The position numbers and the translations under genes are program-made. From Pontiella desulfatans (GTDB lineage: Bacteria > Verrucomicrobiota > Kiritimatiellia > Kiritimatiellales > Pontiellaceae), in contig NZ_CAAHFG010000002.1 of the NCBI RefSeq assembly GCF_900890425.1, positions 1,302,001-1,366,000 of the forward strand: 64,000 nucleotides of DNA. The letters are read 5' to 3'. Below the pieces are notes generated by a model, which did no database searches, was not told the origin of the DNA, and saw nothing but the letters and a program-made list of their open reading frames with translations. Each line of letters opens with the position of its first letter. Position 1 is the first letter of the stretch. Below are positions 12,301-63,971 of the stretch, one piece after another.

Positions 12301-12333
12301 AAATGTAATTGGCGGGACACGGGCGAAGCCGTT

Positions 12334-12342: not shown

Positions 12343-12351
12343 GCCAGACCT

Positions 12352-25712: not shown

Positions 25713-25931
25713 CTAATTGCTGGATGGAAGGATTCCGCTTTTGTAAGCCTTCGAGATGGCGGAGGGGGCGTTCTCGACCTGCAGCTTTTCGTAGATGTGG
25801 CGGATGTGGGTTTTAACGGTGCCAACGCCGATGCCGAGCCGGTCGGCGATTTCCTTCTTGAGCAGGCCATCGCCGAGCAGGGTGAGGATTTCCATTTCCC
25901 GTTCGGAGAGCGGTTTGTCCAGTTGTACCTT
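25713..25931 (-). pseudogene. LuxR/NarL-type response regulator fragment (HTH domain only)
   Basis: About 70 codons encode an intact C-terminal LuxR-type DNA-binding domain (LSEREMEILTLLGDG, KKEIADRLGIGVGTVKTHIRHIYEKL), ending at a TAG. Upstream in the same frame the residues stop resembling a regulator within a few codons of LDKPLSE. No receiver domain, or start with a ribosome site, is visible. An ATG at 25895 exists but lies inside the domain. It is best read as the remnant of a response regulator whose front was lost. It is related to, but not the same as, the complete regulator at 46309-46971. Confidence 0.75.
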
Positions 25932-26092
25932 GGCGGTCCTGGTTTTTATTACGTTCGTAAACCATGGTCGTGGTCGTTCCGCTTGATTCAGGTAGCAAGG
26001 CTGGCCCGTTTCTGTCGAGCAATAGAGAATGGATCAGAAGGGGGCAAATTCCACTTAAGCTTGTAGTCCTAAAATCCGGGTTAAGCGCACTT

Positions 26093-27478: not shown

Positions 27479-27484
27479 GTCTCG

Positions 27485-27577
27485 TTTATATGTCGTCAAA
27501 AGGGGGAATTCAAGCTTTTATTCCTTTTTGTGTCGTGAAAAAGCTTCTTTGTGACGTATTTCGGGTTTTATATGTCG
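27485..27577. promoter_or_regulatory. Three spaced direct repeats at the Fic gene start
   Basis: TTTATATGTCG at 27485-27495 and 27567-27577 (identical), with a related TTTTTGTGTCG at 27525-27535. Right ends are 40 and 42 bp apart, about four helical turns each. The first lies just upstream of the ATG. Likely binding sites for the winged-helix domain or another regulator. Confidence 0.5.
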
Positions 27578-41169: not shown

Positions 41170-41216
41170 ACCACCCTATTGGGTAGGTAGTCGCGAGGGG
41201 AACCCCGTGCTAACTT
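41170..41216 (+). promoter_or_regulatory. 23-bp motif (41170-41192) plus extended -10 (41208-41216)
   Basis: The motif has ACC-ACC at its left end and GGGTAGGTAG-TC at its right end. An extended -10 (TGC-TAACTT) begins 16 bases after it, with a GGGG-AA-CCCC palindrome between. Predicted 5' leader about 50 nt. See the finding on four shared sites. Confidence 0.7.
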
Positions 41217-41272
41217 CTCCAGCAATGGTTGCGGAATGGATTGATCCGCGCCGACTAAAGGAGAAGAAAAAA

Positions 41273-42067
41273 ATGAACAACCCGATTCAGACCACGAAAA
41301 TTCAACGGTATCGATTGATTGGCTTTGCGGCGGCCCTCTTTTTGGGCCTCTCATCGCCGATGGCGGGTGCCGGGGTGATCCTTTCCTACGACAGCCTGCT
41401 CCCGGCATCCGGTGGTTCGGCCACGGCACTCAGCCGTATCAACAGCCAAACCGACACGGAGTTTGTGGCTTCTTCTGCCCAATTCAGCGGAATCGGCCCC
41501 AGAGGTGTGATGGCGGCGATTCATGGTAGCCAAACCAATGTTCAGGGGGCCTACGGCGATCAAAACGACCTCATGTTCCGCTTCGGCAGCAGCGATACCA
41601 CGCCGGGTGATGGAATTCTCTCTGGTGCGCTCTCGGTGGGGCATGTGGCGCTTGGCCCGTATGTCTCATTCAGCTACACGGCAGCCAAAAACCAGACGCT
41701 CAGCGGGTTTTCGTTCCACCTGTTCAATAATTCAAACAACGCCAGCAGTTACGGCGCGCGCGACGTTGGACTCTATGTCCAGGTTGCCGGCGGCGGCTAT
41801 GCCCAGTTTGGTGATTTGGACACCTCAGCCACCGGCAATGGAAACCAGGGCATCGTGACGTTCAGCGACAGCCTTGCCGTGGCGAACGGCGAGCTGGTGG
41901 AATTTCGCCTGGGCTTCACCGACCGCACCCGCACGAACAACGACCTGCAGGCGGCGACCCGCATTGGCGACGTCAACATTTCCGCGATTCCGGAACCGGC
42001 TTCGCTGGGTTTGGTTGCGATGGTGGGGGGAGGAATCTTTTTTGTCCGCCGCCGCTTCATGATCTAG
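41273..42067 (+). CDS. PEP-CTERM secreted protein
   Basis: A 264-aa exported protein. The frame opens at 41162, but ATG 41273 follows AAAGGAGAA and a signal peptide (about 1-40) ending near MAGAGV; the earlier part covers the promoter. A beta-sandwich of about 190 residues precedes a PEP-CTERM tail: IPEPAS, hydrophobic segment, then RRRFMI, slightly different from the RRVFMV tails of the other two. No enzyme motif. Probably a surface or matrix protein processed by exosortase. Its promoter carries the 23-bp motif, and a terminator follows. Confidence 0.85.
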   Translation: MNNPIQTTKIQRYRLIGFAAALFLGLSSPMAGAGVILSYDSLLPASGGSATALSRINSQTDTEFVASSAQFSGIGPRGVMAAIHGSQTNVQGAYGDQNDLMFRFGSSDTTPGDGILSGALSVGHVALGPYVSFSYTAAKNQTLSGFSFHLFNNSNNASSYGARDVGLYVQVAGGGYAQFGDLDTSATGNGNQGIVTFSDSLAVANGELVEFRLGFTDRTRTNNDLQAATRIGDVNISAIPEPASLGLVAMVGGGIFFVRRRFMI

Positions 42068-42092
42068 CGGAATAGTAGACTATTGTTTTTGG

Positions 42093-42119
42093 AAGGGGCG
42101 GTGATCCGCCCCTTTTTGT
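42093..42119 (+). terminator. Intrinsic terminator
   Basis: A 9-bp perfect stem AAGGGGCGG / CCGCCCCTT with a TGAT loop, followed by TTTGTT, 25 bases after the stop codon. Confidence 0.9.
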
Positions 42120-42146
42120 TGCTGCAACCATGTCCGCCGTTCGCCG

Positions 42147-42193
42147 ACTACCTCATCGGCTAGGTGGGCAGGTTTGATCCTTGTTGATACCTT
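42147..42193 (+). promoter_or_regulatory. 23-bp motif (42147-42169) plus extended -10 (42185-42193)
   Basis: Left end ACT-ACC, right end GGCTAGGTGGGC. TGA-TACCTT lies 15-16 bases after the motif, the same distance as upstream of the 41273 and 49310 genes. Predicted leader about 48 nt. Confidence 0.65.
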
Positions 42194-42247
42194 ACCCGCT
42201 ACTGTTTTTTAGCGTGATTGGGTTAGACCGGAAAGGAAGAGGGAAAC

Positions 42248-45200
42248 ATGAAATATGCAGGAATCGCGATAGGCATGGCATGGTTCGCCATGAATGCTTT
42301 AGCTGGCACCGTCACCGTGGGCGTATCCGCGCCCGCAACCAACATCCTGTCGTCTGCGGTTGGCGGGATCGACTCGGCCATCTTCGACGAAAACGCCAAC
42401 GCAAACCATGCGCGGGGCCAGGTCTTCAGCCTCGGGGATGCCGGAGACAAAAACAACGCATTCGAAATCCGCGCGCTCACGATCCAGAAGAGCAATGACC
42501 AAACCTATTCCAACGACACCCTGACCTTGCGGGTTTTCCAGGGATCCGAAGCACAATGGACAACCGGAACCGGCCACTCCACCACCATTGACGGCGACGA
42601 TTATCTGGTCGGCACGGGCTGCGCCTTGCTCCACACCGAAACGTTCACGCTGAACGGAGCATTCTCCAACGAGAGCTTTGTCACCTTGACGCTCGCCACT
42701 CCAATCACCCTTGGCGCAAACGGCGACTATGGCTTTTTCTTTACCTACGATCAGGTCGATGGAACTCAGGATCGATTCCGCTATCGGGAGGGTTCCAACG
42801 GGGGGCGTCTTTCGATTTCAACCACCGCCCATGGCACCTCCGACCGTCAAATGGAATATTACCTCCAAGGCACCGCCGTCGCGGGCTCGCCCACCTTCGC
42901 GGTGTTGTATGGCTCGCCGTTCCAGGACGGCATGGTGCTGCAGCGCGGCAAGCCGCTCAAGGTCTGGGGGACGGCCGCCCCGACCAACGAGGTGACCGTT
43001 TTCCTGAACGGGGCGACGGGCATGGGCATGTCCGATGCCGATGGCAACTGGATGGTGGAGCTTCCGGCGCAGACCGCGAACGGCCCGTATGAACTGACGA
43101 CCGTCTGCAATGGACAAACCAACACGCTGACGGATGTGCTGGTGGGCGATGTTTGGATTGCTTTCGGCCAGTCCAACATGGTGCGTCCGCTGAGCGAAAT
43201 GACCAACAAGCAAATCTATATCGACGACATTTCCACCAACCGCATGATCCGCTGTCTGCAAGTTGCCCAGGATGCGGCCCTTACCCCGCAGGAGTCGGGG
43301 GCCATGACGTGGCTTGATAATTCCAATCCCGGAAGCTGGGGGTCGGTTGCCGCCGTGTTTGCCCACCAGATGCACGCAGGCAGCGGAGTGCCGACCGCGG
43401 TGGTCTGGGCGGGCTGGGGCAGCTCGTCGATCGAAGGCTGGATGCCGATCCAGATGACGAACGATTTCCCGCATTTCGAGGCGATGATGGAGCATTATCA
43501 AAGCATCGGCGAGTACGTCAGCGGCGACACCATCTCGTCGCGCGTGTCGGCCACGTATTCCTCGAACCTCGAAGCGATCACCGCCATGGTCAACGGCACG
43601 GGGACTTGGGATGATATCTTCATCCGCACGCGTCCAAACATTATCTACAACCAGCGGATCCACCCGCTGCTCGACTTCGGTATTTCCGGTTTTGTCTGGT
43701 ACCAGGGCGAGGCGAACGCCGGCACTCCGGAAAACGTTGCCCAGTATGGTTTCACGCTTCCCGCATTCGTTGCGGAATACCGCGCGCTCTTCGGCCAGGG
43801 CGACCTACCGTTCCTCGGCGTGCAGTTGCCATCGTACAACAGCACCTATTGGGCCTGGTTCCGCGAATCCCAAAGCCGGGTCGCAACGCTCAACAACGCC
43901 CATGTGGCCGTAACGATCGATACGGGACTGGTCAACAACATCCACCCCTACGACAAGGAGCCGATCGGCCAGCGCCTCGCCCTGCTGGGGCGCAAATATG
44001 CACTCGGCGAATCCATCGAGGCACATGGCCCGACCTTTGCATCGATGGGCATCAGCGGCAATGAGGCGACCATCACCTTCAGCCATGCGAACGGACTGGC
44101 GACAGACGACGCGCTCGCTCCCGCCGAGTTCGAGTTGGCCGGTTCCGACCAGGTCTGGCATGCCGCAACCAGTGCGGCAATCAGCGGCGGCAATGTCGTG
44201 GTCAGCTCCAGCTCGGAACCTGCTCCGGTGGCCGTGCGCTACGCGTGGTCGCCCGCGCCGGTGAACACCGTGAACCTGATCAATGGCGATGGCCTGCCGG
44301 CCGCGCCGTTCCGCACCGACGACTGGATGCCGACCGGCCTGGGGGCGCAGGCGCCGATGGCGGTGAAGGATTCGTATGGCGTGTTCACCAACGAAACGCT
44401 GGCGGTTGCCGCAGCGGGCGTTTTGGGAAACGACATGGACTTGAACCGCGATCCGCTCACCGCATCGCTGGTCTCCGACGTTTCGCATGGAACGTTGTCG
44501 CTGGCTTCCGATGGCTCGTTCAGCTACACGGCGGATGCCGGTTTTGCCGGAGCCGATTCTTTTGAGTATGCCGCTTCGGATGGCGCATTGTCCGCAACCA
44601 CGACCGTAACGATTGCTGTCAATGTGGGGTCGCTGGCCGCCGGCTATTCGGACGCGTTCGACAACGATGGACTGGCGATCAACTTCGGCGAGGGCGGGGG
44701 GCTGATCAACAAGACCTGGTATGGGTCGGCTTGGCAGGACGATGGCGAGCTGACGGGGCCCGTGAGCGGCACCCGCTGGTACCGCGCCCTCGCCTATACC
44801 GCGCTCTCCTATCCGGTCAGTAATGGCTTCATGCTGGATGTGGCCTACTCCATCACGAACATCGTTGTCGGGGAAGAGCGTGCCACCGCCACCTTCGGAT
44901 TGGTTGCCGACGATGCCACCGAAGCCGACATGGATATCCTGTTCAGCCGGGAAATGCCGATTCAGGGCATCGGCATGAGTCTCACGGACTGCACGGCGGA
45001 AGATGGTGTGCAAGGCTTGCATGCTGATAGCGGAACGCTGGCGCTGTTGAGCAACGACCAAACGGTCACGGCGGGGTCCAACAAAACCTTCAGCCTGACC
45101 GTTCTGCCGGATGGCAGTTGGTCGTACTGCATCGATGGCGCGGAACCGACCACCGGCACCGGCCTGGTTTTCGATCTGGATAAAAACTACCGGTTTGCCG

Positions 45201-45490
45201 CTTTCGTCAGGCAGGATCCCGGTTTTGCCATCCAGCGCGTTTCTCTCGTGCCCATTGCATCCGTCACGGAAATCGGGGAGATCGATTTCGGGATCCTGCC
45301 GGGCGGAACGGAACTGGGGTTCAGCTGGTATGGCGAGGCCGGAGCGAACTACGGACTCGAAATGACGCAAAACCTGGTTACGGGCATTTGGGAAACGGTT
45401 ACGAATGTCGTCGGCGCCAACTCGATGATTTCGCTGACGAACGCGATGGACCGGACCAACGCGTTCTTCCGCGTCTACTTGGCGGACTAG
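42248..45490 (+). CDS. Secreted sialate O-acetylesterase-like protein with cadherin-like domain
   Basis: A 1080-aa exported esterase. Signal peptide ends near MNALAG. Residues about 20-215 form a beta domain; about 217-300 an Ig-like domain typical of sialate O-acetylesterases (VLYGSPFQDGMVLQRG). The SGNH catalytic part (about 300-590) has GQSN with Ser309, a WYQGEAN block with Glu488, and NNIHP with His566. A cadherin-like / VCBS-type repeat (about 700-795, VLGNDMDLNRDPLTASLV) and a LamG-like domain (about 800-1000) follow, then a C-terminal domain ending NAFFRVYLAD. It would remove acetyl groups from glycans. Its stop codon is 4 bases from the convergent 45495 gene. Confidence 0.87.
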   Translation: MKYAGIAIGMAWFAMNALAGTVTVGVSAPATNILSSAVGGIDSAIFDENANANHARGQVFSLGDAGDKNNAFEIRALTIQKSNDQTYSNDTLTLRVFQGSEAQWTTGTGHSTTIDGDDYLVGTGCALLHTETFTLNGAFSNESFVTLTLATPITLGANGDYGFFFTYDQVDGTQDRFRYREGSNGGRLSISTTAHGTSDRQMEYYLQGTAVAGSPTFAVLYGSPFQDGMVLQRGKPLKVWGTAAPTNEVTVFLNGATGMGMSDADGNWMVELPAQTANGPYELTTVCNGQTNTLTDVLVGDVWIAFGQSNMVRPLSEMTNKQIYIDDISTNRMIRCLQVAQDAALTPQESGAMTWLDNSNPGSWGSVAAVFAHQMHAGSGVPTAVVWAGWGSSSIEGWMPIQMTNDFPHFEAMMEHYQSIGEYVSGDTISSRVSATYSSNLEAITAMVNGTGTWDDIFIRTRPNIIYNQRIHPLLDFGISGFVWYQGEANAGTPENVAQYGFTLPAFVAEYRALFGQGDLPFLGVQLPSYNSTYWAWFRESQSRVATLNNAHVAVTIDTGLVNNIHPYDKEPIGQRLALLGRKYALGESIEAHGPTFASMGISGNEATITFSHANGLATDDALAPAEFELAGSDQVWHAATSAAISGGNVVVSSSSEPAPVAVRYAWSPAPVNTVNLINGDGLPAAPFRTDDWMPTGLGAQAPMAVKDSYGVFTNETLAVAAAGVLGNDMDLNRDPLTASLVSDVSHGTLSLASDGSFSYTADAGFAGADSFEYAASDGALSATTTVTIAVNVGSLAAGYSDAFDNDGLAINFGEGGGLINKTWYGSAWQDDGELTGPVSGTRWYRALAYTALSYPVSNGFMLDVAYSITNIVVGEERATATFGLVADDATEADMDILFSREMPIQGIGMSLTDCTAEDGVQGLHADSGTLALLSNDQTVTAGSNKTFSLTVLPDGSWSYCIDGAEPTTGTGLVFDLDKNYRFAAFVRQDPGFAIQRVSLVPIASVTEIGEIDFGILPGGTELGFSWYGEAGANYGLEMTQNLVTGIWETVTNVVGANSMISLTNAMDRTNAFFRVYLAD

Positions 45491-45494
45491 TGCT

Positions 45495-45911
45495 TTACTC
45501 TGGCCGACCGGCGTTTCCCGTGGGTTCACCGCCGTCGCCCGAGCGCAGGATCCGCTGGTCGGGAATGCTGTTTTCCTTGGCAAACCGGATGGCGGTTTCC
45601 AGGGTGTCGAAAAGGTGGATTCTTCCTTTGCCCGCTTTCTTGTGCAGTCCGCTCCTTTTTGAAATCCGAACGCCGTATCCCGTCACCTGTTCAAGGGTGA
45701 ACCCATCCTTTTCCATCGATGCCACCGCCGCTCCATCCGACATGTGAGCCTTCCAGGGTGCGTAGGACAACGTCCCGTCAGAATGTGTGATTCGCGCCCA
45801 GTCTCCATGGTGGATATCGGCAACCGTGACGGCCGTGTGGTTGACGACAACGAGGGTGCCCATGCCAATGATGATTAATGCAATGAACAGGAGTAGCTTG
45901 TTTTTACTCAT
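45495..45911 (-). CDS. Small membrane-anchored protein of unknown function
   Basis: A 138-aa protein. ATG 45911 has a GAAAGGA ribosome site; an upstream frame to 45977 runs into a repeat. One N-terminal helix (about 5-26, LLLFIALIIIGMGTLVVV) anchors a soluble domain of about 110 residues with charged beta-type segments (ITHSDGTLSYAPWKAH, GYGVRISKRSG, ETAIRFAKENSIPDQRILR). No family recognised. It is convergent with the esterase gene, and its promoter region is the repeat-rich interval 45912-46308. Confidence 0.65.
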   Translation of the reverse strand: MSKNKLLLFIALIIIGMGTLVVVNHTAVTVADIHHGDWARITHSDGTLSYAPWKAHMSDGAAVASMEKDGFTLEQVTGYGVRISKRSGLHKKAGKGRIHLFDTLETAIRFAKENSIPDQRILRSGDGGEPTGNAGRPE

Positions 45912-45941
45912 CGTATATCCTTTCAACCTAGAAGCGTAAAT

Positions 45942-46067
45942 GAACCACAGATGAACACGGATAAACACAGAAACCATTCAAGCTTAGTTCCTATAACCCA
46001 CAGGGAGGACGGAACAAATTTCGTCTCTTCTTGAATATCAGCGTCCATCTGTGTTCATCCGTGGTTC
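45942..46067. repeat. Inverted repeat, ACCACAGATGAACACGG type
   Basis: Left arm GAACCACAGATGAACACGG starts at 45942; the complementary right arm CTGTGTTCATCCGTGGTTC lies at 46049-46067. It is a dispersed intergenic palindrome type, upstream of the small membrane protein. Confidence 0.75.
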
Positions 46068-46152
46068 CATTCCTGGGTTAAGGTTCAAGCATGGCACTCT
46101 GCTTCGGTGCCATCACCTTGGTTATACCAAATTAAACTGATTTGAATTTTTT

Positions 46153-46224
46153 ACCACAGAGTTCACAGAGACGCAGAGGGTGGCAGATGTATTGGTTGCT
46201 CTGTGCCTCCGTGCGCTCTGTGGT
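46153..46224. repeat. Inverted repeat, ACCACAGAGTTCACAGAG type
   Basis: Left arm ACCACAGAGTTCACAGAG (46153-46170) and right arm ending GTGCGCTCTGTGGT (46211-46224), paired with mismatches. Second palindromic element in the 397-bp gap 45912-46308, which otherwise holds no gene. Confidence 0.7.
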
Positions 46225-46308
46225 GAGACTCTTCAAGTTAATTGCCTATTAATCAAGTGGCGGGGCGGTTCTTTTTCCTTCGGTGTTCCTTGTTCGTGAT
46301 TCGATATT

Positions 46309-46971
46309 CTAAATAATTCCCTTGCGGATGCCTTTGGCAACGGCGCCGGCCTGGGATTGCACGTTGAGCTTTTTGTAGGTGTTGGCAATGTGGAACTTGA
46401 CCGTGTTGGCGGAGAGGTTCAGATCGTCGGCGATCTCTTTGATGATCTTGCCGGTGGCCAGGGCCTGCAGCACTTCGATCTCGCGTTCGGTGAGGTCGAA
46501 CTCGTTTCCGGCGGTGTTCTTTTTGGGGAAGGCGTCGAGCACGAGCGAGGCCATCTGCGGGTCCAGCGAGGCTCCGCCCTCCATGACGTCCTTGATGCCG
46601 CGGATGATCTGTTCGAAGGCGACGCTCTTAAGCAAGTAGCCGGAGGCACCCGTTCGGATGGCCTCAACGACGTGCTTCTGCCGCTCCGAGCTCGTTAGCA
46701 TAATGCATTTAATGGTTGGGTCGATTTCCCTGATTCTTCCAAGACCTTCAATGCCGTCCATGCCCGGCAGCGCAATGTCGACCAGCATCACCTCGGGATG
46801 CTCCATTTCGGCTTCGAGGCATTCGAGGGCTTCTTCGCAGGAGGAAAAGTTCCGGTCGCAGCGAATGGTGCCGGAGGCGTTGATGATTTCGGTCAGATTG
46901 GTTCTGAAGGCCGCATGGTCTTCAATCATCCAGGTTTTCACCGTCTTTCTTTTGCCAGATCCTGTTGTCAT
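46309..46971 (-). CDS. NarL/FixJ-type response regulator
   Basis: A 220-aa two-component regulator. The receiver domain (about 10-130) has acidic residues in MIEDH, phospho-acceptor Asp65 in MLVDIALPGMDG, Thr93 and Lys115. The LuxR-type DNA-binding domain (about 155-215) has LTEREIEVLQALATG, IIKEIADDLNLSANTVKFHI. The gene lies 36 bases after the histidine kinase gene on the same strand and is certainly its partner. Targets are unknown; nearby polysaccharide genes are plausible. The 23-bp motif upstream of neighbouring genes is one candidate binding site, but that is inference only. Confidence 0.93.
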   Translation of the reverse strand: MTTGSGKRKTVKTWMIEDHAAFRTNLTEIINASGTIRCDRNFSSCEEALECLEAEMEHPEVMLVDIALPGMDGIEGLGRIREIDPTIKCIMLTSSERQKHVVEAIRTGASGYLLKSVAFEQIIRGIKDVMEGGASLDPQMASLVLDAFPKKNTAGNEFDLTEREIEVLQALATGKIIKEIADDLNLSANTVKFHIANTYKKLNVQSQAGAVAKGIRKGII

Positions 46972-47007
46972 CCTACTCCTCTGTTGCAGTGCCGTATTGG
47001 TTTCTGA

Positions 47008-49071
47008 TTATAACGGCATTTTCAATGTAACCTGTGTCCCTTGGCCCGGGGTAGACTGGATTTCGAGTTCCGCGCCCAGCAGTTTCGCCCGCCGTTCCAT
47101 GTTGGCAAGGCCACGTCCCGAATCGCTGTTGGCCACGACGGTGCAGGACGGATCGAAACCGATTCCATCGTCTTTCATGGTTAGTTCCAGGACGGAATCG
47201 TGCATGGCGGCCTGGATGGACATGTGTTTCGCCTGCGCATATTTGGCGCAATTGTAGAGGGCTTCCTTGACCAGCAGCATGATGTTCCTGCGGGTTTTGG
47301 CCGGAACCGGAATGCCCTGGGGCGGGGGATAGGTGAAATCGACCTGGCAATCCGTCAGGACGCTTCTTGCGGTTCGTTCGAGTTTTTCGAACATTTCGGA
47401 AAGGTGGACGATATCGGAGTCCATGTGCCAGATGATTTCCTTGATGGAGATGAAGCTTTCCTGGGCAATATGCCCGATCTCCATCAACTTATCGCGGATG
47501 AGCGCGGGCGAGGAATCCTGTTGCAGGCGTCGGGTGATCATGGAGATGGTGCCCAGGTTGCTGCTGATGTCGTCGTGCAGGTCGGCGGCGATCTGCCGGC
47601 GTAGGTCCATTAGGGCGCGTTGCCGGGCAATGCGCTGGTAGGCAATCCAGAGGATGAGGGAAAAGAAGAGGATCGTGCCGCCGGACATGCCGACCATCCA
47701 GTAATAGGAGTTGCGGGTGGCGCGGGCGATCATCAGGCGATGCTGGGTTTCGGCAAGTGCTTCGACCAGGATTTTCCTGGCGGCGAGCTGCTCGATATAG
47801 TCCCGCTCGGGAATGATCTTGCGGCCGTTGCTGTAGCCATCGGTCAGCAGGCGCGTATCGGCGGCTTCGCCTTCGGGAGTCTGGGTCACACGGATGCTCG
47901 CTCCTGCGGCAAGGTTGTTCAGCTGGTTGCCCTCGCGACCCATCAGCCGGATCTCCCCCATGGCGAAAACCGGGCGGCCATCATGGCGCGGTAACTCGTG
48001 CAGGATCAAACGAACAAAGCGCCCTTTGGCCGAGGAAAGCGGGTGCCAGCGCATCCGGGAGGGCAGGGTGTCTTCGATGATTCCGGATTGGATGGCCGGC
48101 TCCGTTTTCAACCACCGGCGCAACTCGACCTGGTATTCCAAGGGGAAGGCAAACTCCGGAATCGGCATGCCCGGCAGCTTGGCGGGATAGAGTTCGACGC
48201 GCCCGATGTTCCGGGCCTCGCCCAGGTCGATGATGATTTCGGGGGTTGCAAGACGGATGGTTTCCTCATCGAAATACTGGACGAAATCCGCCGCCGGGTG
48301 ATGGGTGTGGAAATAACCGCCGGCATGGATTTTCCGGTCGGTGAGGTATTGGAGTTTCCAGTAGGGAGGCTCGTTGAGGGAGTCGGATGCCGTCAGCCCT
48401 TGGTATGCCGGGGGAGCCACGTTGTTGCCCTGTTGGAACACCATGAGTTCGTCCAATGCAAAGAACTGCGAGTCGCCCTCGACCACGCCTTTGTTGACCG
48501 TAAGGCGAACGGTCTGCACGGCGCGGGCGGCAAAGCTGAAAAAAACGGGGTGCAGTCCGGGGTCGGGAAAATCCGCAGCCGTCCAGTCCACGACCGTTAC
48601 CGGGACATCCGGTTCCTGGTGGCTGAAGATTTCGATCTTGAAGCGTTTGGGGAATCCATAGTTTCCTTCGTCCGAAAACGCCGGGTAGAAGGCCGGTACC
48701 AATGCGATGCCATCCACGGACGACGTCCACTTGCCGAAGAACGAGAGTTGCACCCAGGCTTCCATGGTGTCGTTGGTGGCGCCGGCGGGGTGCCGCCCGC
48801 CCAGGTATCCGAAATATTGATGGGGCGGGGCGATTCTGCTTTCGAGCTGCGGGAGCTGTTCCAGTTTTTCCTGCTCCATGCGTTCGCGCTTTTCAAGCGC
48901 CCCCATGCCGCGTTCCGCGATTCCCGCGGAGGGCGGGCCGGCCTCCTCCGGGAAGCAGGGATCGGAATAGCCCCGGCCCCCGGGGGGCTGCGCCTGGATC
49001 GTTCCGGCGAGCAGGCTCCCGAAGAGGGCTGCGGAGATCAATGTTGCGGGTATGGGGAATGTCGTGTCCAT
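47008..49071 (-). CDS. Sensor histidine kinase (HisKA_3 type) with galactose-binding-like sensor
   Basis: A 687-aa membrane sensor. Signal/anchor segment at the start (to about IQAQ), a periplasmic part of about 430 residues, one transmembrane helix (about 455-478), then a NarX/DesK-type kinase: DLHDDISSNLG with phospho-His499, and an ATPase domain with Asn in LLVKEALYNCAKYAQ, DDGIGFDP and SGRGLANM. The periplasmic part seems to hold two discoidin-like (galactose-binding) folds (about 90-220 and 275-378), for example IIDLGEARNIGRVELYP, FVRLILHEL and FAMGEIRLMG. Such folds often bind sugars, so this sensor may detect polysaccharide fragments. It heads a two-gene operon with the response regulator. 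Confidence 0.88.
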   Translation of the reverse strand: MDTTFPIPATLISAALFGSLLAGTIQAQPPGGRGYSDPCFPEEAGPPSAGIAERGMGALEKRERMEQEKLEQLPQLESRIAPPHQYFGYLGGRHPAGATNDTMEAWVQLSFFGKWTSSVDGIALVPAFYPAFSDEGNYGFPKRFKIEIFSHQEPDVPVTVVDWTAADFPDPGLHPVFFSFAARAVQTVRLTVNKGVVEGDSQFFALDELMVFQQGNNVAPPAYQGLTASDSLNEPPYWKLQYLTDRKIHAGGYFHTHHPAADFVQYFDEETIRLATPEIIIDLGEARNIGRVELYPAKLPGMPIPEFAFPLEYQVELRRWLKTEPAIQSGIIEDTLPSRMRWHPLSSAKGRFVRLILHELPRHDGRPVFAMGEIRLMGREGNQLNNLAAGASIRVTQTPEGEAADTRLLTDGYSNGRKIIPERDYIEQLAARKILVEALAETQHRLMIARATRNSYYWMVGMSGGTILFFSLILWIAYQRIARQRALMDLRRQIAADLHDDISSNLGTISMITRRLQQDSSPALIRDKLMEIGHIAQESFISIKEIIWHMDSDIVHLSEMFEKLERTARSVLTDCQVDFTYPPPQGIPVPAKTRRNIMLLVKEALYNCAKYAQAKHMSIQAAMHDSVLELTMKDDGIGFDPSCTVVANSDSGRGLANMERRAKLLGAELEIQSTPGQGTQVTLKMPL

Positions 49072-49102
49072 GGGGTATGTTCGTTGGGGTCAACCGATAG
49101 GG

Positions 49103-49111
49103 AAGCTAGCA
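49103..49111 (-). promoter_or_regulatory. Extended -10 for the histidine kinase operon
   Basis: On the reverse strand TGC (49111-49109) is followed by TAGCTT (49108-49103); a TTGTTT lies about 18 nt upstream as a possible -35. Predicted leader about 25 nt. The same nine bases precede the ECF sigma gene. Confidence 0.5.
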
Positions 49112-49170
49112 CAACGATGCCGCTGGAAACAAAATAAACACCGGCTAAATTGGGGGATTGCTTGAGGGAA

Positions 49171-49218
49171 ACCACCTCTTTGGCTAGGTAGCCATAGACG
49201 GGGTCCCGATGCTAGATT
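49171..49218 (+). promoter_or_regulatory. 23-bp motif (49171-49193) plus extended -10 (49210-49218)
   Basis: Left end ACC-ACC, right end GGCTAGGTAGCC. TGC-TAGATT begins 17 bases after the motif; a CGGG-GT-CCCG palindrome lies between. Predicted leader about 85 nt. Confidence 0.7.
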
Positions 49219-49309
49219 CCACCGATGTGATAGGCCGTATGTCCGTTTTGGATGGGATGCAGGAGCGGATACGGTTTTTTTTTAGAACAACAACCCAAGG
49301 AAACCCGCC

Positions 49310-50416
49310 ATGACGATTCAAACCCTAAACCGTCGTTCCCTGCTGCGCAATGGAGCCGCCGCCACTGCCGCCCTAACCGTGTCGCCGTCCGTGTTTGGGG
49401 AGCGTGCGGTACCCTCGTATTTGAACAAGCAGGCGGCCTTATACCAAACCGATCCCCGGGCGGCTGCGCTGGAGTATTTCAAGGCAGCGGACTTCGGCCT
49501 GTTTATCCATTACGGGCTCTACTCCTTGCTGGGCCGGGGCGAATGGGTGCAGTTGAAGGATAAAATCCACGTGGCGGAGTATGCCAAGCTGGCCGACCGG
49601 TTTACCGCGGAAAAATTCGATGCCGACTTCATTACCGATATGGCGCTCGATGCCGGGATGACGTATGTCAACCTCACGACCCGCCACCACGACAGCTTCT
49701 GCCTCTTCGATTCCAAATACACCGACTTCAAGAGCACCAACTCGCCGGCCAAGCGCGATCTGGTTGGCGAACTGGCCGAACAGTGCCGGAAAAAGAACAT
49801 GGGCTTTTATCTCTATTATTCGCACGGCCGCGACTGGCGCCATCCGCATGCGCCCAACAACGGCGATTGGGGTGGCAACGCCCGGCCGAAATATGATGCC
49901 CAGGAGCCGTTCTATAAATACGGCGAGGAACAGGATCTCCAGATTTATGTGGAATTCATGAAAAACCAGATCACCGAGCTGCTGACCAACTATGGTCCGG
50001 TCGGCGGCATCTGGCTGGACGGGGAGGGCACCCCCAAATCCCGTAAGAACCGGCTGCACGAGTTCAAGCTGCAGGAGCTCTACGACCATATCCGGTCGCT
50101 GCAGCCGCAGGCCCTGGTTTCCTACAAGCATGGGCTGACCGGCACGGAGGACTTCAAGGCCCCCGAGCGCAAATTCGAGGGCACATCCGATGTGCCCCTG
50201 GAATTCTGCGATACGCTGCAACCGTGGAAGTGGGGATACGACAAGAGTCTGGACGGGAAGCACAAGACCGCCGACCAGGTGATGGAAATGCTCGGTAAGG
50301 CGCGGGGGATGGATGGCAACCTGTTGCTCAACGTGGGCCCGTTGCCGGACGGTTCCATCCATCCGGAAGATCTGAAGACGCTGGCCGAAGTGGGCAAGCG
50401 TTTGCGGAACGCCTAG
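49310..50416 (+). CDS. GH29-family alpha-L-fucosidase with possible Tat signal
   Basis: A 368-aa short-form GH29 enzyme. The start has twin arginines (NRRSLLRNGAAATAALTV), resembling a Tat export signal, so it may be folded before export. The barrel carries FKAADFGLFIHYGLYS, LTTRHHDSFCLFDS, SPAKRDLVGEL, GIWLDG with nucleophile Asp237, and GMDGNLLLNVGPLPDG. No C-terminal accessory domain. It cleaves alpha-L-fucose or a related sugar; the size and single domain suggest action on short oligosaccharides in the periplasm. Its promoter carries the 23-bp motif. It is clearly different from the 705-aa enzyme at 27851. Confidence 0.92.
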   Translation: MTIQTLNRRSLLRNGAAATAALTVSPSVFGERAVPSYLNKQAALYQTDPRAAALEYFKAADFGLFIHYGLYSLLGRGEWVQLKDKIHVAEYAKLADRFTAEKFDADFITDMALDAGMTYVNLTTRHHDSFCLFDSKYTDFKSTNSPAKRDLVGELAEQCRKKNMGFYLYYSHGRDWRHPHAPNNGDWGGNARPKYDAQEPFYKYGEEQDLQIYVEFMKNQITELLTNYGPVGGIWLDGEGTPKSRKNRLHEFKLQELYDHIRSLQPQALVSYKHGLTGTEDFKAPERKFEGTSDVPLEFCDTLQPWKWGYDKSLDGKHKTADQVMEMLGKARGMDGNLLLNVGPLPDGSIHPEDLKTLAEVGKRLRNA

Positions 50417-50501
50417 GCCTGCGCCTCGGATTGCTTTCTGTTCCTGCTGAGCGATGGCCATCCCGTCATCAAGACCCCGCACTTTCCCCTCCAGAATAAA
50501 T

Positions 50502-50537
50502 ACCACCTGATCGGGTGGGTAGGCATGGTGCTAGACC
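50502..50537 (+). promoter_or_regulatory. 23-bp motif (50502-50524) plus close extended -10 (50529-50537)
   Basis: Left end ACC-ACC, right end GGGTGGGTAGGC. TGC-TAGACC begins only 5 bases later here, so the motif is 11-12 bp, about one helical turn, nearer the -10 than in the other three. Predicted leader about 83 nt. Confidence 0.65.
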
Positions 50538-50626
50538 GATGGTATCTTCAGCAAGACGCTATTGGAAAAGGCATTGCAGCCTTTCCATGCATTGAAAGGT
50601 AACCGGAAATCAACTGGAGGAAAGTC

Positions 50627-53026
50627 ATGAGGAACGAGATGAAAGCATTCGCATGCGTCGCAACGGTCGCACTTCTGGGCGCATCGCTCGCACAGGCGCA
50701 GCTCACCTGGGATGTCGTGCCCGGCACGGTCGGCATCGGCGACAACGCCATCGCCCATAGCAACGGCGTGTGGGACGCAACCTCGGGAAACTGGACGGCG
50801 GATGGCGGCACCAACAATGTGCTCTGGATTTCCGGGGCGGATGCCGTGTTCGGTAACAACGAGAGCAATACCGCGGTTACCATCGATATCCCGGATGCCG
50901 GCGTGACGGTCGGCGATCTAACGCTGGAACCCGGCGGCGGCAAGGTCAGCCTCCAGGCCATCAACGACAATATCGGCGCCATCACGGTTAATCCCGGCGG
51001 GGCGACGTGGGATACCGGCGGGCGCGAAATTGAAATTGTCGGATTGAATACGAGCAATGATACCCGCGTGATCATGACCCCTGGCGACACCCTGACGGTT
51101 GTCGGCGGCGGCACATTCGATGCGGGGGAAAGGCAGCAGAATGCCAACTGGGTGGCCACCGGCGCCACGAATGATATCCAGGATGGCGTAACGGTGCGCG
51201 GATGCGTCAACAACGTCGGGCAGTTCGACATGATCAAGCTCGAAGGCGGCACCACCTACATCCACGAGCGCAACTCCGGCCAAACCTACAACAACGACTG
51301 GGAGCTGGGTGCGGGGATCGTCTCGTTTGATAACCGGTTTACCCGACCGTATGTGATAAATGGTGTGATCAGCGGCCCCGGAACGCTGCTGGTCAAGGAT
51401 CTCGGCGGAACCGGCCAGGACTCCCGTTTGCAGCTGAATCAAACCAACACGTTCACCGGCGGGATCATCGTTGATTCGAGCAACAACCTCGCCCGTTTGT
51501 CGATTAGCGGCGACCACCAGCTTGGTGCGGTTCCGGCAACATTCGACCCCGACAACATTGTGCTCCGCAACGGCGGCATGATGAAACTGACGACGGTCAC
51601 GCTCAACCTCAACCGCGGCATCACGCTCGAAAACGGGGTGGGCGGGGTGATCCTCAACTCCGCCCCGAGCACCATCGGCAGTCCGATTACCGGCCCGGGA
51701 AGCTTCCGGGTGGGTTGGGATGGCGATTCTTCCGGGAACGCGGTCATCCTTACCACGAACAATACGTACGAGGGCGAGACCAACCCGCGCAGGGGAACGA
51801 TTCAATTGGGCATCGAGAATGCCCTGCCCACCACTACGGTGCTGTCCATCGGGGGTAGTGCCGGCGCTTCGGTGCTGGAGATGAATGGCTTCAACCAGAC
51901 CATCGGCGGCCTTACCACCACGGGCGGAAACACGCGCCAGATCGAAAACAACAGCGCAACCAGCGTAACGCTCACCATCAATGTGGCCAGCAGCAATACC
52001 TACGATTATGCTGCAAACTTTGCGGATGTCGGCGACATTGCCCTGGTGAAGGAAGGCGCCGGCGTTCAGCGTCTGTCACGTAGTGGCGGTTATTCAAAGA
52101 ATCCGGTCTCGCTGACGATCAACGGCGGGGAGCTGGAGCAAAGCGGAACGGCCTTTGCCGTACCGATCACGGTCAATTCCGGCGGAACCCTGGGCGGCAT
52201 CGGTACAACCCTCAGCAACGTGGTCGTCATGTCCGGCGGCTCCATTTCCCCCGGTAACAACGACGGATGGAACTCGGTGAAGATCGAGGGGGCCAACCTC
52301 GACCTCAGCGACATGATCGACGATAATGCCGGCGGACTGCAGATCGGGTTCGGGGCCGCTTTCGATTCGATCATTGTCAGCACCAACGCCTCCGGCTTGG
52401 GTGGAACCCTCGATATGGATGGCCCCACGGGATCCGACCTCGGATTCAGCGACTTCACCTTCACGGATCAGGATGGGGTGGCGAGTGGTGTTTATCCGAT
52501 CCTGGTTGCCCAGTCGATCGTTGGAACGCTGGATGCAACCGACCTGGGCGGGGATGTCGGCGACCTCGGTGCAACGGGGATGCTCTCGCTGTCGAACAAC
52601 ACCGTTTGGCTCACGATCGACGGTGTCGATACGTCCGAATACGGCCAGTGGGCCTCGACCTTTGACCTGCCGAAAGGCTCGGATCTGGTCGATACGGATG
52701 ACGACGGCTACAACAACTTCCAGGAATTCGCCTTTGGCGGCGATCCCACCAACGACCTGGTGGTCGGCATGGTTCCGGTGGCCGGCACGCTGGACGATGG
52801 CTCCACCAACTGGCTGACGATGGTCTATGGCGAGCGCACCAACGACAACCCGGGCGTAACCTACACCGTTGAAACGGTCGATGACTTGGTTTTCGGCACC
52901 TGGACCAACGATGTCACCTTCCTGGGGTATGGCGACACGGTCGATGGCATCACCCCCGTCACCAACGCCATTCCGATTGACAACACGAAGGACTTCCTGG
53001 GCGTGTTCCTCGAAAAGCAGGAATAG
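50627..53026 (+). CDS. Secreted autotransporter-type beta-strand repeat protein
   Basis: A 799-aa exported protein with a CTGGAGGAAAG ribosome site and a signal peptide ending near LAQAQ. It is a close paralogue of the 7355 protein over its full length: Trp-Thr-Ala-Asp-Gly / Leu-Trp-Ile-Ser-Gly opening, Gly/Asn/Thr beta-strand repeats, then the Asp-rich segment (DTDDDGYNNFQEFAFGGDPTN) and a C-terminal beta domain ending FLGVFLEKQE. No PEP-CTERM tail, no membrane barrel. Probably a surface-exposed or matrix beta-helix protein. Its promoter carries the 23-bp motif and a terminator follows. Confidence 0.85.
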   Translation: MRNEMKAFACVATVALLGASLAQAQLTWDVVPGTVGIGDNAIAHSNGVWDATSGNWTADGGTNNVLWISGADAVFGNNESNTAVTIDIPDAGVTVGDLTLEPGGGKVSLQAINDNIGAITVNPGGATWDTGGREIEIVGLNTSNDTRVIMTPGDTLTVVGGGTFDAGERQQNANWVATGATNDIQDGVTVRGCVNNVGQFDMIKLEGGTTYIHERNSGQTYNNDWELGAGIVSFDNRFTRPYVINGVISGPGTLLVKDLGGTGQDSRLQLNQTNTFTGGIIVDSSNNLARLSISGDHQLGAVPATFDPDNIVLRNGGMMKLTTVTLNLNRGITLENGVGGVILNSAPSTIGSPITGPGSFRVGWDGDSSGNAVILTTNNTYEGETNPRRGTIQLGIENALPTTTVLSIGGSAGASVLEMNGFNQTIGGLTTTGGNTRQIENNSATSVTLTINVASSNTYDYAANFADVGDIALVKEGAGVQRLSRSGGYSKNPVSLTINGGELEQSGTAFAVPITVNSGGTLGGIGTTLSNVVVMSGGSISPGNNDGWNSVKIEGANLDLSDMIDDNAGGLQIGFGAAFDSIIVSTNASGLGGTLDMDGPTGSDLGFSDFTFTDQDGVASGVYPILVAQSIVGTLDATDLGGDVGDLGATGMLSLSNNTVWLTIDGVDTSEYGQWASTFDLPKGSDLVDTDDDGYNNFQEFAFGGDPTNDLVVGMVPVAGTLDDGSTNWLTMVYGERTNDNPGVTYTVETVDDLVFGTWTNDVTFLGYGDTVDGITPVTNAIPIDNTKDFLGVFLEKQE

Positions 53027-53087: not shown

Positions 53088-53210
53088 GTTTTGGGGCGGC
53101 CGGCAAGGGTTAAGTGAAATCGCTTGTCACTTTCCATCGAAATACGGGGTTTATGGTGTATGTATGGGTGCCGAGGGGACTCTTTTTTTAGACCACGAAT
53201 GCGGAATATG

Positions 53211-56200
53211 ATGAAACGACTTTTTATAGCGCTGTTGACTTTTGTGTGCGCATCTCAGGCGGAACGCTCCGGTTTTGACCTGGATTGGAAATTTGTGCTT
53301 GGGGATCCGGACGGGGCCGAGCAGGTTCGCTTTGACGACGCCGGTTGGCGCACGTTGGATGTCCCGCACGACTGGAGCATCGAAGGCGAATACCATAAAA
53401 ACAATCCGATGGGCGGGACTGCGGGATACCTTCCGGCGGGAATCGGGTGGTATCGCAAAACGATCCCGGTGCCGGGCGATTGGAAGGGCCGGCATGTCGA
53501 GATCGCCTTCGACGGCGTCTACATGAACAGCACCGTCTGGGCAAACGGAAAAAAACTCGGTACGCGCCCCTATGGCTGGAGTTCGTTTTCGTACGACATC
53601 AGCGACGTGGTTCAATCCGCCGACTCCATCACCTTCGCCGTGCGGGTGGATAACGAAAAGCAGCCCTCTGCGCGCTGGTACACCGGCAGCGGCATCTATG
53701 CCCACACGTGGATCGATGTGAAGCAAAAGGTGCATGTGCCGGCCGATGGGCTTTTTGTCCGCACCGACGGTGGCCGCGTGGAACTCGATGCGGAAATCCG
53801 CAACACCACGGGGGCCATGCAAAAAATCGACGTCGAGGTTTCCATCGTCGATCCCGAAGGGAAGGTCGTGGCCTCGCAGCGCAAGTCCGTCATGGCAGGA
53901 AACGATGCGGTTCAGGTTTCGGGTTTCAGGTTCGAGGTTTCCGCTCCCCGGCGGTGGGATCTGGATACGCCGAACCTGTATAAGGCGTCGGTGGTTTTGA
54001 AGAGCGGGAATATCCCGTTCGATCAGGCCGAAGTACGGTTCGGTTTCCGCGATATCGAGTGGAAGCCGCAAACCGGCATGTGGCTGAATGGCAAAAACGT
54101 AAAGCTCCGGGGCGTGTGCAACCATCAGGATGCGGGGGCGTTGGGCGCGGCGGTTCCGGACAAGATCCTGCGCTTCCGGATCGAACAGTTGAAGACCATG
54201 GGCTGCAATGCCATCCGCACCGCCCACAACCCGCAGACACCGGTCTTCTACGACATCTGCGACGAGGTCGGCATGCTGGTGATGGACGAGATTTTCGATG
54301 GATGGAAGAAAAAGGCGGCGCACGATTATGGCCGGTACCATTTTAACGACTGGTGGGAACGCGATGTGGCCGGTTGGATCAAGCGCGACCGCAACCATCC
54401 CTCCGTGGTGATCTATAGCGTGGGGAACGAGACCCACGGCAAGGTCGGGAAGGATATTGTTGCGCTCTGCCACACATTGGATCCCACGCGGCCGGTCACC
54501 TCCGGACACTCGGGTTCGGAATATATGGATGTGCTCGGCGTCAACGGCGCCAGCGAATCGGTGGGGTGGTTCGACCGGCTGGAAACAGACCGCGTATTCA
54601 TCGGCACCGAAAACACCCACACCTGGCAGGTGCGGGGGTTCTACCGCACTAAAACCTGGTATCGCGACGGCGGCCCCGAGGTGAAAAAAGCCGTCCATGA
54701 AATCCCCGACCTGACCGAGGTCGAAGTGTTTTCGCACGATTGGACGGACGAGTCCGGGCGCTCCCACCGCAAGCAGGTGTTCAACTCCAGCTATGACAAT
54801 GCCACGGTTCGCACGACGGCGCGCCACAACATCGAGCAGCTGCGCGACATTCCAAATTTTGCCGGCACCTTCCGCTGGACGGGCCACGACTATATCGGCG
54901 AAGCCAGCTATGTGCATGGCGGCTGGCCGTTCAAGGCCTTCATGGGGGGGGCGATCGACCTGGCCAACTTTGAAAAGGATCTCTATTACCTCTACCAGAG
55001 CCAATGGACGGACGAACCGATGGTGCACATCCTGCCGCACTGGACGCACCCGACGCTCAAGGAGGGAACGAAGATTCCCGTCTGGGTCTACTCCAACTGT
55101 TCCGAGGTTGAATTGTTCCTGAACGGAACGTCGATCGGCACGCAGGCGCCGGGCCGGGCCTGGAACGAAATGCAGTGCCAGTGGATGGTGCCGTGGGCGC
55201 CGGGCGAGCTGAAGGCCGTTGCGATCCAGGGCGGACGTGCGGTTGCCGAAAAAACCATTCGTTCGGCCGATGCGCCGTCGCGCATTGCGCTCTCTATCGA
55301 CGGCGAGCCGCTGGCTGCCGAAGGCAAGGACCTCGTTCAGGTGCGCGTAACTTCGACCGATGAAAAAGGCGAGATGTATCCCTACGGCGAAAACCGAACC
55401 TTCTTCAAGGTGCTTGGACCCGGAAGACTCCGTGCGCTCGATAACGGTAGCCCGATCGATGTGGAAAAACACTTCGGTGTGGATAGCCGCATCGCGTTCC
55501 ATGGCCTGACCCGCGCTTATGTCGAATCGACCGGCGAGCCGGGCGGCATCGCCCTCGTGGCGAGCTGCATCCTCGGCGAAAAGAAACAGGTTTCCTCTAA
55601 CAAGGTTAGCATTGATGTGCAGCAGATTCCGTTGCGCGGATCGGTGCCCGAATCGAAGGTGGAAATCTTTTATACGACCGATCAGTCCGAGCCGACCGCT
55701 CGGTCCACCCCCTACACAGGGGCGTTTCCGGTTAAGCTGGGCACCACCGTAAAAGCAATGGTGATGGTGGACGGCAAGCCATTCCAGACGCTGGAGGAAC
55801 GCTTTGCCATGAACGAAGGTTTCGTGTGGAACAGCAAGCCCACGGCATCCAATCCCGGCGGCGAGCAGGCCGAGGATGCGGCGCTCAGCGGCGCGCGCGT
55901 CAGCGCCAAGGGCAAGGGGTTCCATGGGCGGGGCTTCATCGACTTTGGCCACAATCGCGGCGCCTATGCCGAGTGGTATCAGGAAAACGACGGTGATGCC
56001 GGACAGGCCGAGCTGACGATCCGCTATAGCGGAAACGCCAAAGGCAAGCCCGGGCGCAACGTGAAACTGACGGTGAACGGCCAAACGGTTCAAGCGGAAC
56101 TATTGCTCCCGAACACGAAGGACTGGGGCTCCGATTGGCAAACCCTGACGGTTGGCATTCCGATTAAGCGCGGCGCCAACACCATCCGGCTCACCACGGT

Positions 56201-56243
56201 GGAAAGCGGTGGAATGTATATCGATGAGATCTCCGTTCGATAA
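53211..56243 (+). CDS. Secreted GH2-family beta-galactosidase-like enzyme
   Basis: A 1010-aa exported enzyme. ATGs at 53199, 53208 and 53211 are possible; 53211 gives the best signal peptide (MKRLFIALLTFVCASQA). Order: GH2 sugar-binding domain (about 20-180), Ig-like domain (about 185-285), TIM barrel (about 285-590), DUF4982-type Ig domain, further beta domains, a chitobiase C-terminal-like domain (about 825-875, IFYTTDQSEPT) and a C-terminal CBM6/35-like domain. Catalytic acid/base is Glu407 in VGNETH; Glu467 in IGTENTHTW is the likely nucleophile. GLRG-type motif KLRGVCNHQDAGALG is typical. Exact sugar (galactose, glucuronate or other) is uncertain. The gene ends 2 bases from the convergent beta-helix gene. 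Confidence 0.9.
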   Translation: MKRLFIALLTFVCASQAERSGFDLDWKFVLGDPDGAEQVRFDDAGWRTLDVPHDWSIEGEYHKNNPMGGTAGYLPAGIGWYRKTIPVPGDWKGRHVEIAFDGVYMNSTVWANGKKLGTRPYGWSSFSYDISDVVQSADSITFAVRVDNEKQPSARWYTGSGIYAHTWIDVKQKVHVPADGLFVRTDGGRVELDAEIRNTTGAMQKIDVEVSIVDPEGKVVASQRKSVMAGNDAVQVSGFRFEVSAPRRWDLDTPNLYKASVVLKSGNIPFDQAEVRFGFRDIEWKPQTGMWLNGKNVKLRGVCNHQDAGALGAAVPDKILRFRIEQLKTMGCNAIRTAHNPQTPVFYDICDEVGMLVMDEIFDGWKKKAAHDYGRYHFNDWWERDVAGWIKRDRNHPSVVIYSVGNETHGKVGKDIVALCHTLDPTRPVTSGHSGSEYMDVLGVNGASESVGWFDRLETDRVFIGTENTHTWQVRGFYRTKTWYRDGGPEVKKAVHEIPDLTEVEVFSHDWTDESGRSHRKQVFNSSYDNATVRTTARHNIEQLRDIPNFAGTFRWTGHDYIGEASYVHGGWPFKAFMGGAIDLANFEKDLYYLYQSQWTDEPMVHILPHWTHPTLKEGTKIPVWVYSNCSEVELFLNGTSIGTQAPGRAWNEMQCQWMVPWAPGELKAVAIQGGRAVAEKTIRSADAPSRIALSIDGEPLAAEGKDLVQVRVTSTDEKGEMYPYGENRTFFKVLGPGRLRALDNGSPIDVEKHFGVDSRIAFHGLTRAYVESTGEPGGIALVASCILGEKKQVSSNKVSIDVQQIPLRGSVPESKVEIFYTTDQSEPTARSTPYTGAFPVKLGTTVKAMVMVDGKPFQTLEERFAMNEGFVWNSKPTASNPGGEQAEDAALSGARVSAKGKGFHGRGFIDFGHNRGAYAEWYQENDGDAGQAELTIRYSGNAKGKPGRNVKLTVNGQTVQAELLLPNTKDWGSDWQTLTVGIPIKRGANTIRLTTVESGGMYIDEISVR

Positions 56244-62480: not shown

Positions 62481-63971
62481 ATGAAAACTATCAAAGCAGC
62501 AGGCAAAAGCAAGCGGGCACCTAAAGGCATGGGCCGCCTTTACATTCGTGGAAAGGACCGGAAGGAATACCCAGCAGGGACTCCCAACGTAGAAGGCGGA
62601 GCTTATTGGTTAGCTTATCTGAAACCCACGGGCGCAACCGATGCCAATGGAAAGCCGGTCAAAAAGAAAACACGCGTATCCCTAAAGGATGCAGACGGAA
62701 ATTCCATTACCACCAAGAAAGAAGCGGAAGAGGCTCAGAAGCGCATAATTCATCAATATGTAGCCACCAGTAAGGAAGAGCAGTTGATCAGTCTTAAAGC
62801 GAAGATTGAGGAAGCTACAGAAGAGCGCGTCAAAGCAGTAGAAGAGGCAAACCCTCCGCTTGCTATCAGTGAAGCATGGGAAAGCTATCGTGATAATCCC
62901 AAGGCCGACCTAACCAGCAATATTGATACTCTCAAAGGATATATTGGCTACTGGAAGGCATTTTCAGAATGGCTAGGGGAAAGAAACCCTCATGCTGTAT
63001 ACCTGCGGGATGTAACCGACAAGGATGCAGAAACTTATTCCAAGCATCTAAGAAAGCAGTTGGCGCGCGGCACCTATAACAAGCAAATCCGCTTTTTACG
63101 TTCCCTATTTACAGTGGTGGCGAAGGATGCACGTATAGCGGAAAATCCTTTTGAGGGAATCCTTACTATCGATAAGGAAGAGGAGCGGGATTCTCGCCGC
63201 GCGTTAAGTGTTGAAGAGCTGCGGACTATTCTGGAACGGGCGGAAGGTGAATTAGCGACTCTGCTGTTTCTTGGTACGTTTCTCGGGCTACGCTTGGGTG
63301 ACTGCTGTACTCTCTCTTGGTCGGAATGTAACCTCGCAAAGGGGTTGGTCTTCCGGAAGACCAACAAGGCCAAGAAAAGGGTTTCCGTTGGAATTCCGGC
63401 ACCATTAATGGAGCTCCTGCTTCAAACTCCTGCATCAAATCGTAAGGGATATATCGTTCCTGATTTCGCTGGTCGGTACACATACAGAAACGCGACCGGC
63501 GCAACTACACAACGAGGGTCCATTACTGATCAGGTTCAGAAGCATCTGGGGACTGTCTGCGGTATCAGGTTGTATAAAGAGGGTACCGGGAAGACACCTG
63601 AATATTTGGAGAAACTTAAGCAATGGGAGCAGGGCGGTTGTAAAGGTAAAAAACCCACGTATAAGCGCGCTGTTGTTGAGGTTGGGTTTCATTCGCTCCG
63701 GCATTCCTATGTTTCGTTACAGGCGGCTACAGGCACCCCTCAGGCTGTTGTGCAGAAGTTGGTAGGGCATGGAAGCCCAGCAATGACTGAACACTACACA
63801 CACCTTGAAGAATCGACTGTTTTGCAGGCGGCGAGATCCTTAGACCATAGGATCATCGATGCCGACTTTGAGGAAGTGCGGACGGTGTCGCCATGGATAC
63901 GGGAAGCACTTGGAACCGCAACGGCGCATAATTGGCAGGACGTAATTAACGAAGTGTTGGGGGGTGCATAG
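62481..63971 (+). CDS. Tyrosine recombinase / integrase
   Basis: A 496-aa site-specific recombinase. Ribosome site AAGGAAGGG precedes ATG 62481. A long Lys-rich N-terminal arm-binding part (about 1-130), a SAM-like core-binding domain (about 135-225), then the catalytic domain with Arg271 (LGLRLGD), His404-Ser-Leu-Arg407, His430 (GHGS) and Tyr439 (EHYTH). All five are present, so it should be active. It contains an insert of about 40 residues before HSLRH. It lies 149 bases from the tRNA-Arg fragment and most likely integrates an element at the 3' end of that tRNA. Codon use looks less G/C-rich than its neighbours, as in acquired DNA. Confidence 0.94.
   Translation: MKTIKAAGKSKRAPKGMGRLYIRGKDRKEYPAGTPNVEGGAYWLAYLKPTGATDANGKPVKKKTRVSLKDADGNSITTKKEAEEAQKRIIHQYVATSKEEQLISLKAKIEEATEERVKAVEEANPPLAISEAWESYRDNPKADLTSNIDTLKGYIGYWKAFSEWLGERNPHAVYLRDVTDKDAETYSKHLRKQLARGTYNKQIRFLRSLFTVVAKDARIAENPFEGILTIDKEEERDSRRALSVEELRTILERAEGELATLLFLGTFLGLRLGDCCTLSWSECNLAKGLVFRKTNKAKKRVSVGIPAPLMELLLQTPASNRKGYIVPDFAGRYTYRNATGATTQRGSITDQVQKHLGTVCGIRLYKEGTGKTPEYLEKLKQWEQGGCKGKKPTYKRAVVEVGFHSLRHSYVSLQAATGTPQAVVQKLVGHGSPAMTEHYTHLEESTVLQAARSLDHRIIDADFEEVRTVSPWIREALGTATAHNWQDVINEVLGGA

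Follow-up and report, generated by a model that had tools for sequence, protein, structure and literature searches.

A candidate private operator of a NarL-type two-component system at a polysaccharide gene cluster of Pontiella desulfatans

The cluster and its four promoters

The stretch of Pontiella desulfatans DNA analysed here (64,000 nucleotides, referred to as the window) contains a kinase-regulator gene pair on the minus strand. Four upstream regions share a motif, P1, and these four sites flank the pair, which sits between sites 2 and 3. The elements that matter for the argument are the following.

41170..41192, plus strand: putative operator P1 site 1 (ACCACCCTATTGGGTAGGTAGTC), upstream of the PEP-CTERM gene; kept at the orthologue in genome G016 (L068:6164)
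41188..41216, plus strand: predicted promoter 1, weak -35 TAGTCG at 41188-41193, 17-bp spacer, extended -10 TG-C-TAACTT at 41208-41216
41273..42067, plus strand: proposed target gene, secreted PEP-CTERM protein of 264 aa (PEP-CTERM matches)
42147..42169, plus strand: putative operator P1 site 2 (ACTACCTCATCGGCTAGGTGGGC), upstream of the esterase gene
42165..42193, plus strand: predicted promoter 2, -35 TGGGCA, 17-bp spacer, extended -10 TG-A-TACCTT at 42185-42193
42248..45490, plus strand: proposed target gene, SASA-family acetylesterase with cadherin/Ig-like domains (Pfam PF03629)
46309..46971, minus strand: NarL/LuxR-type response regulator (Response_reg and GerE), the proposed P1 binder
47008..49071, minus strand: sensor histidine kinase of DesK/NarX type, with a signal peptide, two predicted CBM32/F5-8C-like domains, one TM helix, HisKA_3 and HATPase
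49171..49193, plus strand: putative operator P1 site 3 (ACCACCTCTTTGGCTAGGTAGCC), between the kinase and GH29 genes; in the same place in genomes G016 and G001
49189..49218, plus strand: predicted promoter 3, -35 TAGCCA, 18-bp spacer, extended -10 TG-C-TAGATT at 49210-49218
49310..50416, plus strand: proposed target gene, GH29 alpha-L-fucosidase (PF01120)
50502..50524, plus strand: putative operator P1 site 4 (ACCACCTGATCGGGTGGGTAGGC)
50520..50548, plus strand: predicted promoter 4, -35 TAGGCA, 17-bp spacer, extended -10 TG-G-TATCTT at 50540-50548, not TAGACC
50627..53026, plus strand: proposed target gene, secreted beta-strand-rich protein of 799 aa without a Pfam match
53124..56243, plus strand: GH2-family glycosidase (PF02836/PF02837), probably co-transcribed with 50627-53026 across a 97-bp gap

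The four 23-mers were first pointed out in an earlier note, which placed all of them correctly and listed 14 of 23 positions as invariant, as indeed they are. Its -10 hexamers for sites 1-3 (TAACTT at 41211-41216, TACCTT at 42188-42193 and TAGATT at 49213-49218) are likewise confirmed. The helical-turn shift that it suggested for site 4 was a misreading: TGCTAGACC (50529-50537) had been taken for the -10, while TGGTATCTT (50540-50548) stands 18 bp after the motif, at the standard distance. Promoter geometry is therefore tighter than had been claimed. The -10 hexamers start 18, 18, 19 and 18 bp after the motif at sites 1, 2, 3 and 4, and all four extended -10s fit TGnTAnnTT.

The motif contains a 20-bp dyad, CYACCT-N8-AGGTRG, with its centre 30.5-31.5 bp upstream of the first -10 base. 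If transcription starts 12 bp after that base, the centre would lie near -42. Motif positions 19-24 (TAGTCG, TGGGCA, TAGCCA and TAGGCA at sites 1-4) form a weak -35 with a spacer of 17-18 bp, hence the end of the motif is common to the operator and the -35. With the start so predicted, the dyad falls in the region of -41.5 and overlaps a weak -35, which is the class II position. The proposal that P1 is the site of a regulator, probably an activator, at a constant place in the promoter is supported.

Two other features of the window can be mentioned. On the minus strand at 25728-25946 there is probably the remnant of a decayed regulator: a NarL-type HTH fragment that lacks a receiver domain and shares 67% identity with the HTH of the L072 regulator (see below). 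It adjoins a reading frame with a Fic-like motif (26093-27499, minus strand). A tyrosine recombinase of the phage integrase family (62481-63971, plus strand) lies at the edge of a sulfatase cluster.

Distribution of P1 in this genome and in relatives

The motif is real and matches far better than chance would allow. Scanning upstream regions de novo gave it a score of 66 versus at most 5 in 20 shuffles, and with no -10 requirement it scored 82 versus at most 40 in 25 dinucleotide shuffles. Coverage of the genome consisted of pattern searches and selected stretches. Motif and -10 together have exactly four matches in the 8.66-Mb genome, all in the window, and the reversed-pattern control has none. 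The motif alone, with up to three mismatches, gave 523 genome-wide matches versus 731 for the reversed control, which adds nothing to the four sites, and plasmid records held no match to the site 3 region. A genome-wide regulon was considered and rejected, as only chance-level matches occur outside the cluster. Since the matches are confined to four sites around one cluster, the regulon would be local.

The idea that genes for secreted proteins and polysaccharide breakdown form a regulon, and that the 46309 regulator is its likely binder, holds up, while the genome-wide matches that the earlier note expected with it do not appear. The same note would have abandoned the idea if genome matches occurred at chance frequency. 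That argument does not apply to a local regulon, for which function is indicated by conservation at orthologues in other species.

Kinase and motif were both searched for in 58 genomes. Kinase orthologues more than 60% identical are present in G001, G008 and G016 only, the next best match being 34% identical, and the 46309 regulator has orthologues 70-85% identical in the same three genomes. In a named genome collection the regulator has a single close relative, in Pontiellaceae bacterium B12227. Allowing one mismatch at most, P1 is matched in three of the four genomes whose kinase orthologue exceeds 60% identity and in 0 of the 54 others.

P1 recurs in G001, G008 and G016 upstream of orthologues of window genes. 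Because several of these lie on other contigs, the sites go with the genes. G016 has kept the gene order around the orthologous pair, and its PEP-CTERM, esterase and GH29 genes each have a site in front; ahead of the esterase gene the operator stands out as a nearly identical block amid flanks that have diverged. G001 has sites upstream of GH29 and of its orthologues of 33419 and 37634, two genes of the window. The G008 sites stand in front of GH29, of a gene whose protein shares the window esterase's C-terminal part, and of the kinase gene itself. The esterase orthologue of G008 showed no P1 match upstream, which counts against a private operator and means that membership of the regulon turns over. 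The ten sites in other genomes were found from the motif alone, and each has a TA 17-19 bp further downstream, for which the product of local background frequencies is 5e-8. A further point against a private operator is a related site, L072:9669, that lies close to another pair with a regulator of only 37% identity.

At L072 we also noticed an 839-aa protein (9827-12346, minus strand) whose middle domain resembles hydrazine synthase alpha and which also has a cytochrome c domain; it adjoins a sulfatase.

The kinase-regulator pair and its paralogues

PF00072 and PF00196 both match the 46309 regulator above cut-offs, giving a receiver followed by a GerE helix-turn-helix, and its full-length PDB matches are NarL, VraR, DevR and DesR. 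D18, D65 and K115 are invariant among the four orthologues, so that the phosphoacceptor aspartate and the lysine of the receiver are conserved; residues 203-215, after the recognition helix, are also identical among orthologues. It is not NarL proper, the nitrate regulator, as it scores 121.9 bits against the NCBIfam NarL equivalog (cut-off 250).

The kinase is of HisKA_3 type (PF07730, with HATPase_c, PF02518); H499 is invariant in 18 kinases. A structure model of the kinase half is DesK/VraS-like, with DesK and VraS as top fold matches. Modelled alone (pLDDT 81.5), the sensor part has two discoidin-like beta-sandwich domains. Domain 1 (residues 5-135) has a CBM32 match at Z 9.5, the nearest being galactose-binding CBM32 modules, and domain 2 (residues 176-302) has matches to a fucose-binding lectin and CBM32 at Z 8.7; such Z-scores of 8-9.5 are moderate, and a common fold is not proof of ligand binding. 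Pfam makes no CBM32/F5-8C call in this kinase and a weak one in a paralogue. The extracytoplasmic part is thus predicted from the models to be two CBM32-like domains that look sugar-binding.

This genome has 14 matches to the N-terminal 485 residues of the kinase (the sensor part). The pair at C1:3.00 Mb has beside it seven copies of the palindrome CCTACTGATTTCAGYAGG in a 25-kb stretch; the rest of the genome has none, nor does any of the 57 relatives searched. Scans of other pairs gave the operators CCTGTTGAATTGACCAGTAG at C3:970-997k, ACCTAGAGATTCCTCTAGTAG at C1:674-690k and others, and CATCCCGTG-AA-CACGGGATG at C1:1336-1339k. The palindromes at these other clusters are unrelated, in many cases near-perfect, and occupy the same place in the promoter; whatever the class of operator, most copies have their centre 30.5-33.5 bp from the TA of the -10. 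De novo scans found repeated operators in 6 of 12 kinase-regulator blocks, with scores of 45-354 versus 4-39 in 7 control blocks. Two results count against the pattern: the other six kinase-regulator blocks showed no shared operator in the de novo scan, and one control block did reach 39.

The regulators at C1:674k and C3:959k have the same helix, STAGFHLSNI, and both are near ACCTAGAG-type sites; a neighbouring regulator with the helix TARFHLSNI is near CCTGTTGA sites. It is suggestive, though not a test, that the recognition helix appears to track operator type across these regulators. We rejected C3:1010-1023k as a separate system: no regulator was found beside it, and its operators are of the ACCTAGAG class of C1:642-702k.

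Some further sites came to light. The variants CTACACGATTGTGTAGGTTG, CTACATATTTTAGTAGGTTG and CTACTAATTTTGGTAGGTTT of CCTACTGATTTCAGYAGG are at G000:C1:2889357, 2913341 and 3039534, near the 25-kb block and outside it. A control block, L208-L210 (G000:C1:3600-3660k), has its own repeated upstream motif, approximately TTGGCGG then TACTATT, before the -10. In another species (L156/L155, G021:C1:3456-3496k), GTCTACAAGGTCGCGTACGGG is present three times at the same distance from the -10, near two regulator genes.

What P1 may be

The closest tested promoter is E. coli ogt, which is activated by NarL from a site at -44.5 and has -10 TATCTT and -35 TGGCTG (PMC7419079). The likeness to the NarX/NarL-ogt system extends to a HisKA_3-type kinase, a NarL-family regulator, a dyad operator and nearly the same promoter (PMC7419079). 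There are differences. NarL binds inverted heptamers 2 bp apart (7-2-7), whereas P1 has other half-sites and a spacing of N8, which counts against assigning P1 to a NarL-type regulator; the paralogous P2 (CTACTGA-TT-TCAGTAG) does have 7-2-7 spacing. E. coli NarL is a global nitrate regulator while the regulator here would serve one gene cluster, and unlike that of NarX the sensor is predicted to be CBM-like.

Local two-component control is known from the polysaccharide utilization loci of Bacteroides, where it is exerted by hybrid systems (PMC11253607). These likewise place a dedicated sensor-regulator beside each polysaccharide cluster, but as a single fused membrane sensor kinase and regulator; here there are two proteins, with a NarL-type HTH and a CBM32-like sensor. 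For Pontiella agarivorans, kinase (PF07730) and regulator genes near GH and sulfatase genes were suggested to serve in substrate sensing (PMC10880615). That is the same setting at the level of the genus, described there without operators, promoters or motifs. A response regulator with PEP-CTERM gene targets, DVUA0057 of Desulfovibrio vulgaris, is listed in a figure among regulators that lack a validated binding motif (PMC3333781); both the organism and the gene setting differ from ours.

We suggest, with a probability of roughly 0.8, that P1 is the private operator of the local two-component system 46309/47008 and activates the surrounding polysaccharide genes; binding, activation and the glycan signal are inferred from sequence. 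An extracytoplasmic glycan would be sensed by the predicted tandem CBM32-like domains of the kinase (47008-49071), which would then phosphorylate the NarL-type regulator (46309-46971). A regulator dimer would bind the inverted repeat CYACCT-N8-AGGTRG near -42, over the weak -35, and recruit RNA polymerase, so activating the PEP-CTERM, esterase, GH29 and beta-strand/GH2 genes. We favour this because there are only four full sites in 8.66 Mb and they flank a kinase-regulator pair, and because sites stand at orthologues in genomes that carry the regulator and paralogous pairs have different operators.

The sign of the effect could be opposite, or the protein a different one. Overlap with the -35 is a position that repressors use too, and the sequence would fit an operator from which a repressor, or an unlinked transcription factor, blocks RNA polymerase. 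We think this improbable. All four promoters have a poor -35 (TRGnCR), as suits dependence on an activator; across species the site goes with the local pair, paralogous pairs have operators of their own in the same place, and the window genes scanned yielded no other DNA-binding regulator. The fixed spacing between the upstream element and the -10 might instead suggest that both together are the promoter of an alternative sigma factor, e.g. of the ECF type. However, the -10 is of the ordinary extended sigma-70 type, the upstream element is dyad-symmetric and is replaced in other clusters by unrelated palindromes at the same position, and the window genes scanned yielded no sigma factor, all of which makes this very unlikely. 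That all four sites lie within one 10-kb cluster could also reflect chance similarity or recent duplication of one upstream region. This we can practically dismiss: shuffled sequences never reached the observed score, flanks and downstream genes are unrelated, and the cross-species data contradict it, with a conserved island between diverged flanks in G016 and sites that follow orthologues to other contigs.

We lean, with some reserve, towards the view that the genus has an expanded family of kinase-regulator pairs with CBM-like sensors, each with its own operator at a fixed position, and that the pairing of helix and operator is a natural specificity code for NarL-type regulators that can be read from genomes. 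The kind of system is known, while the P1 sites and the family-wide operator pattern appear to be undescribed; in open-access papers we found no description of these operators. Sulfatase and glycosidase genes are very numerous in the anaerobic polysaccharide degraders of this group, and we found no published operator for any of them. If our reading is true, the sensor, regulator, operator and targets of each cluster could be assigned from sequence, which would give a handle on the glycan that it answers. The paralogous pairs would also be a series in which to study how the DNA specificity of NarL-type regulators changes at one kept promoter position.
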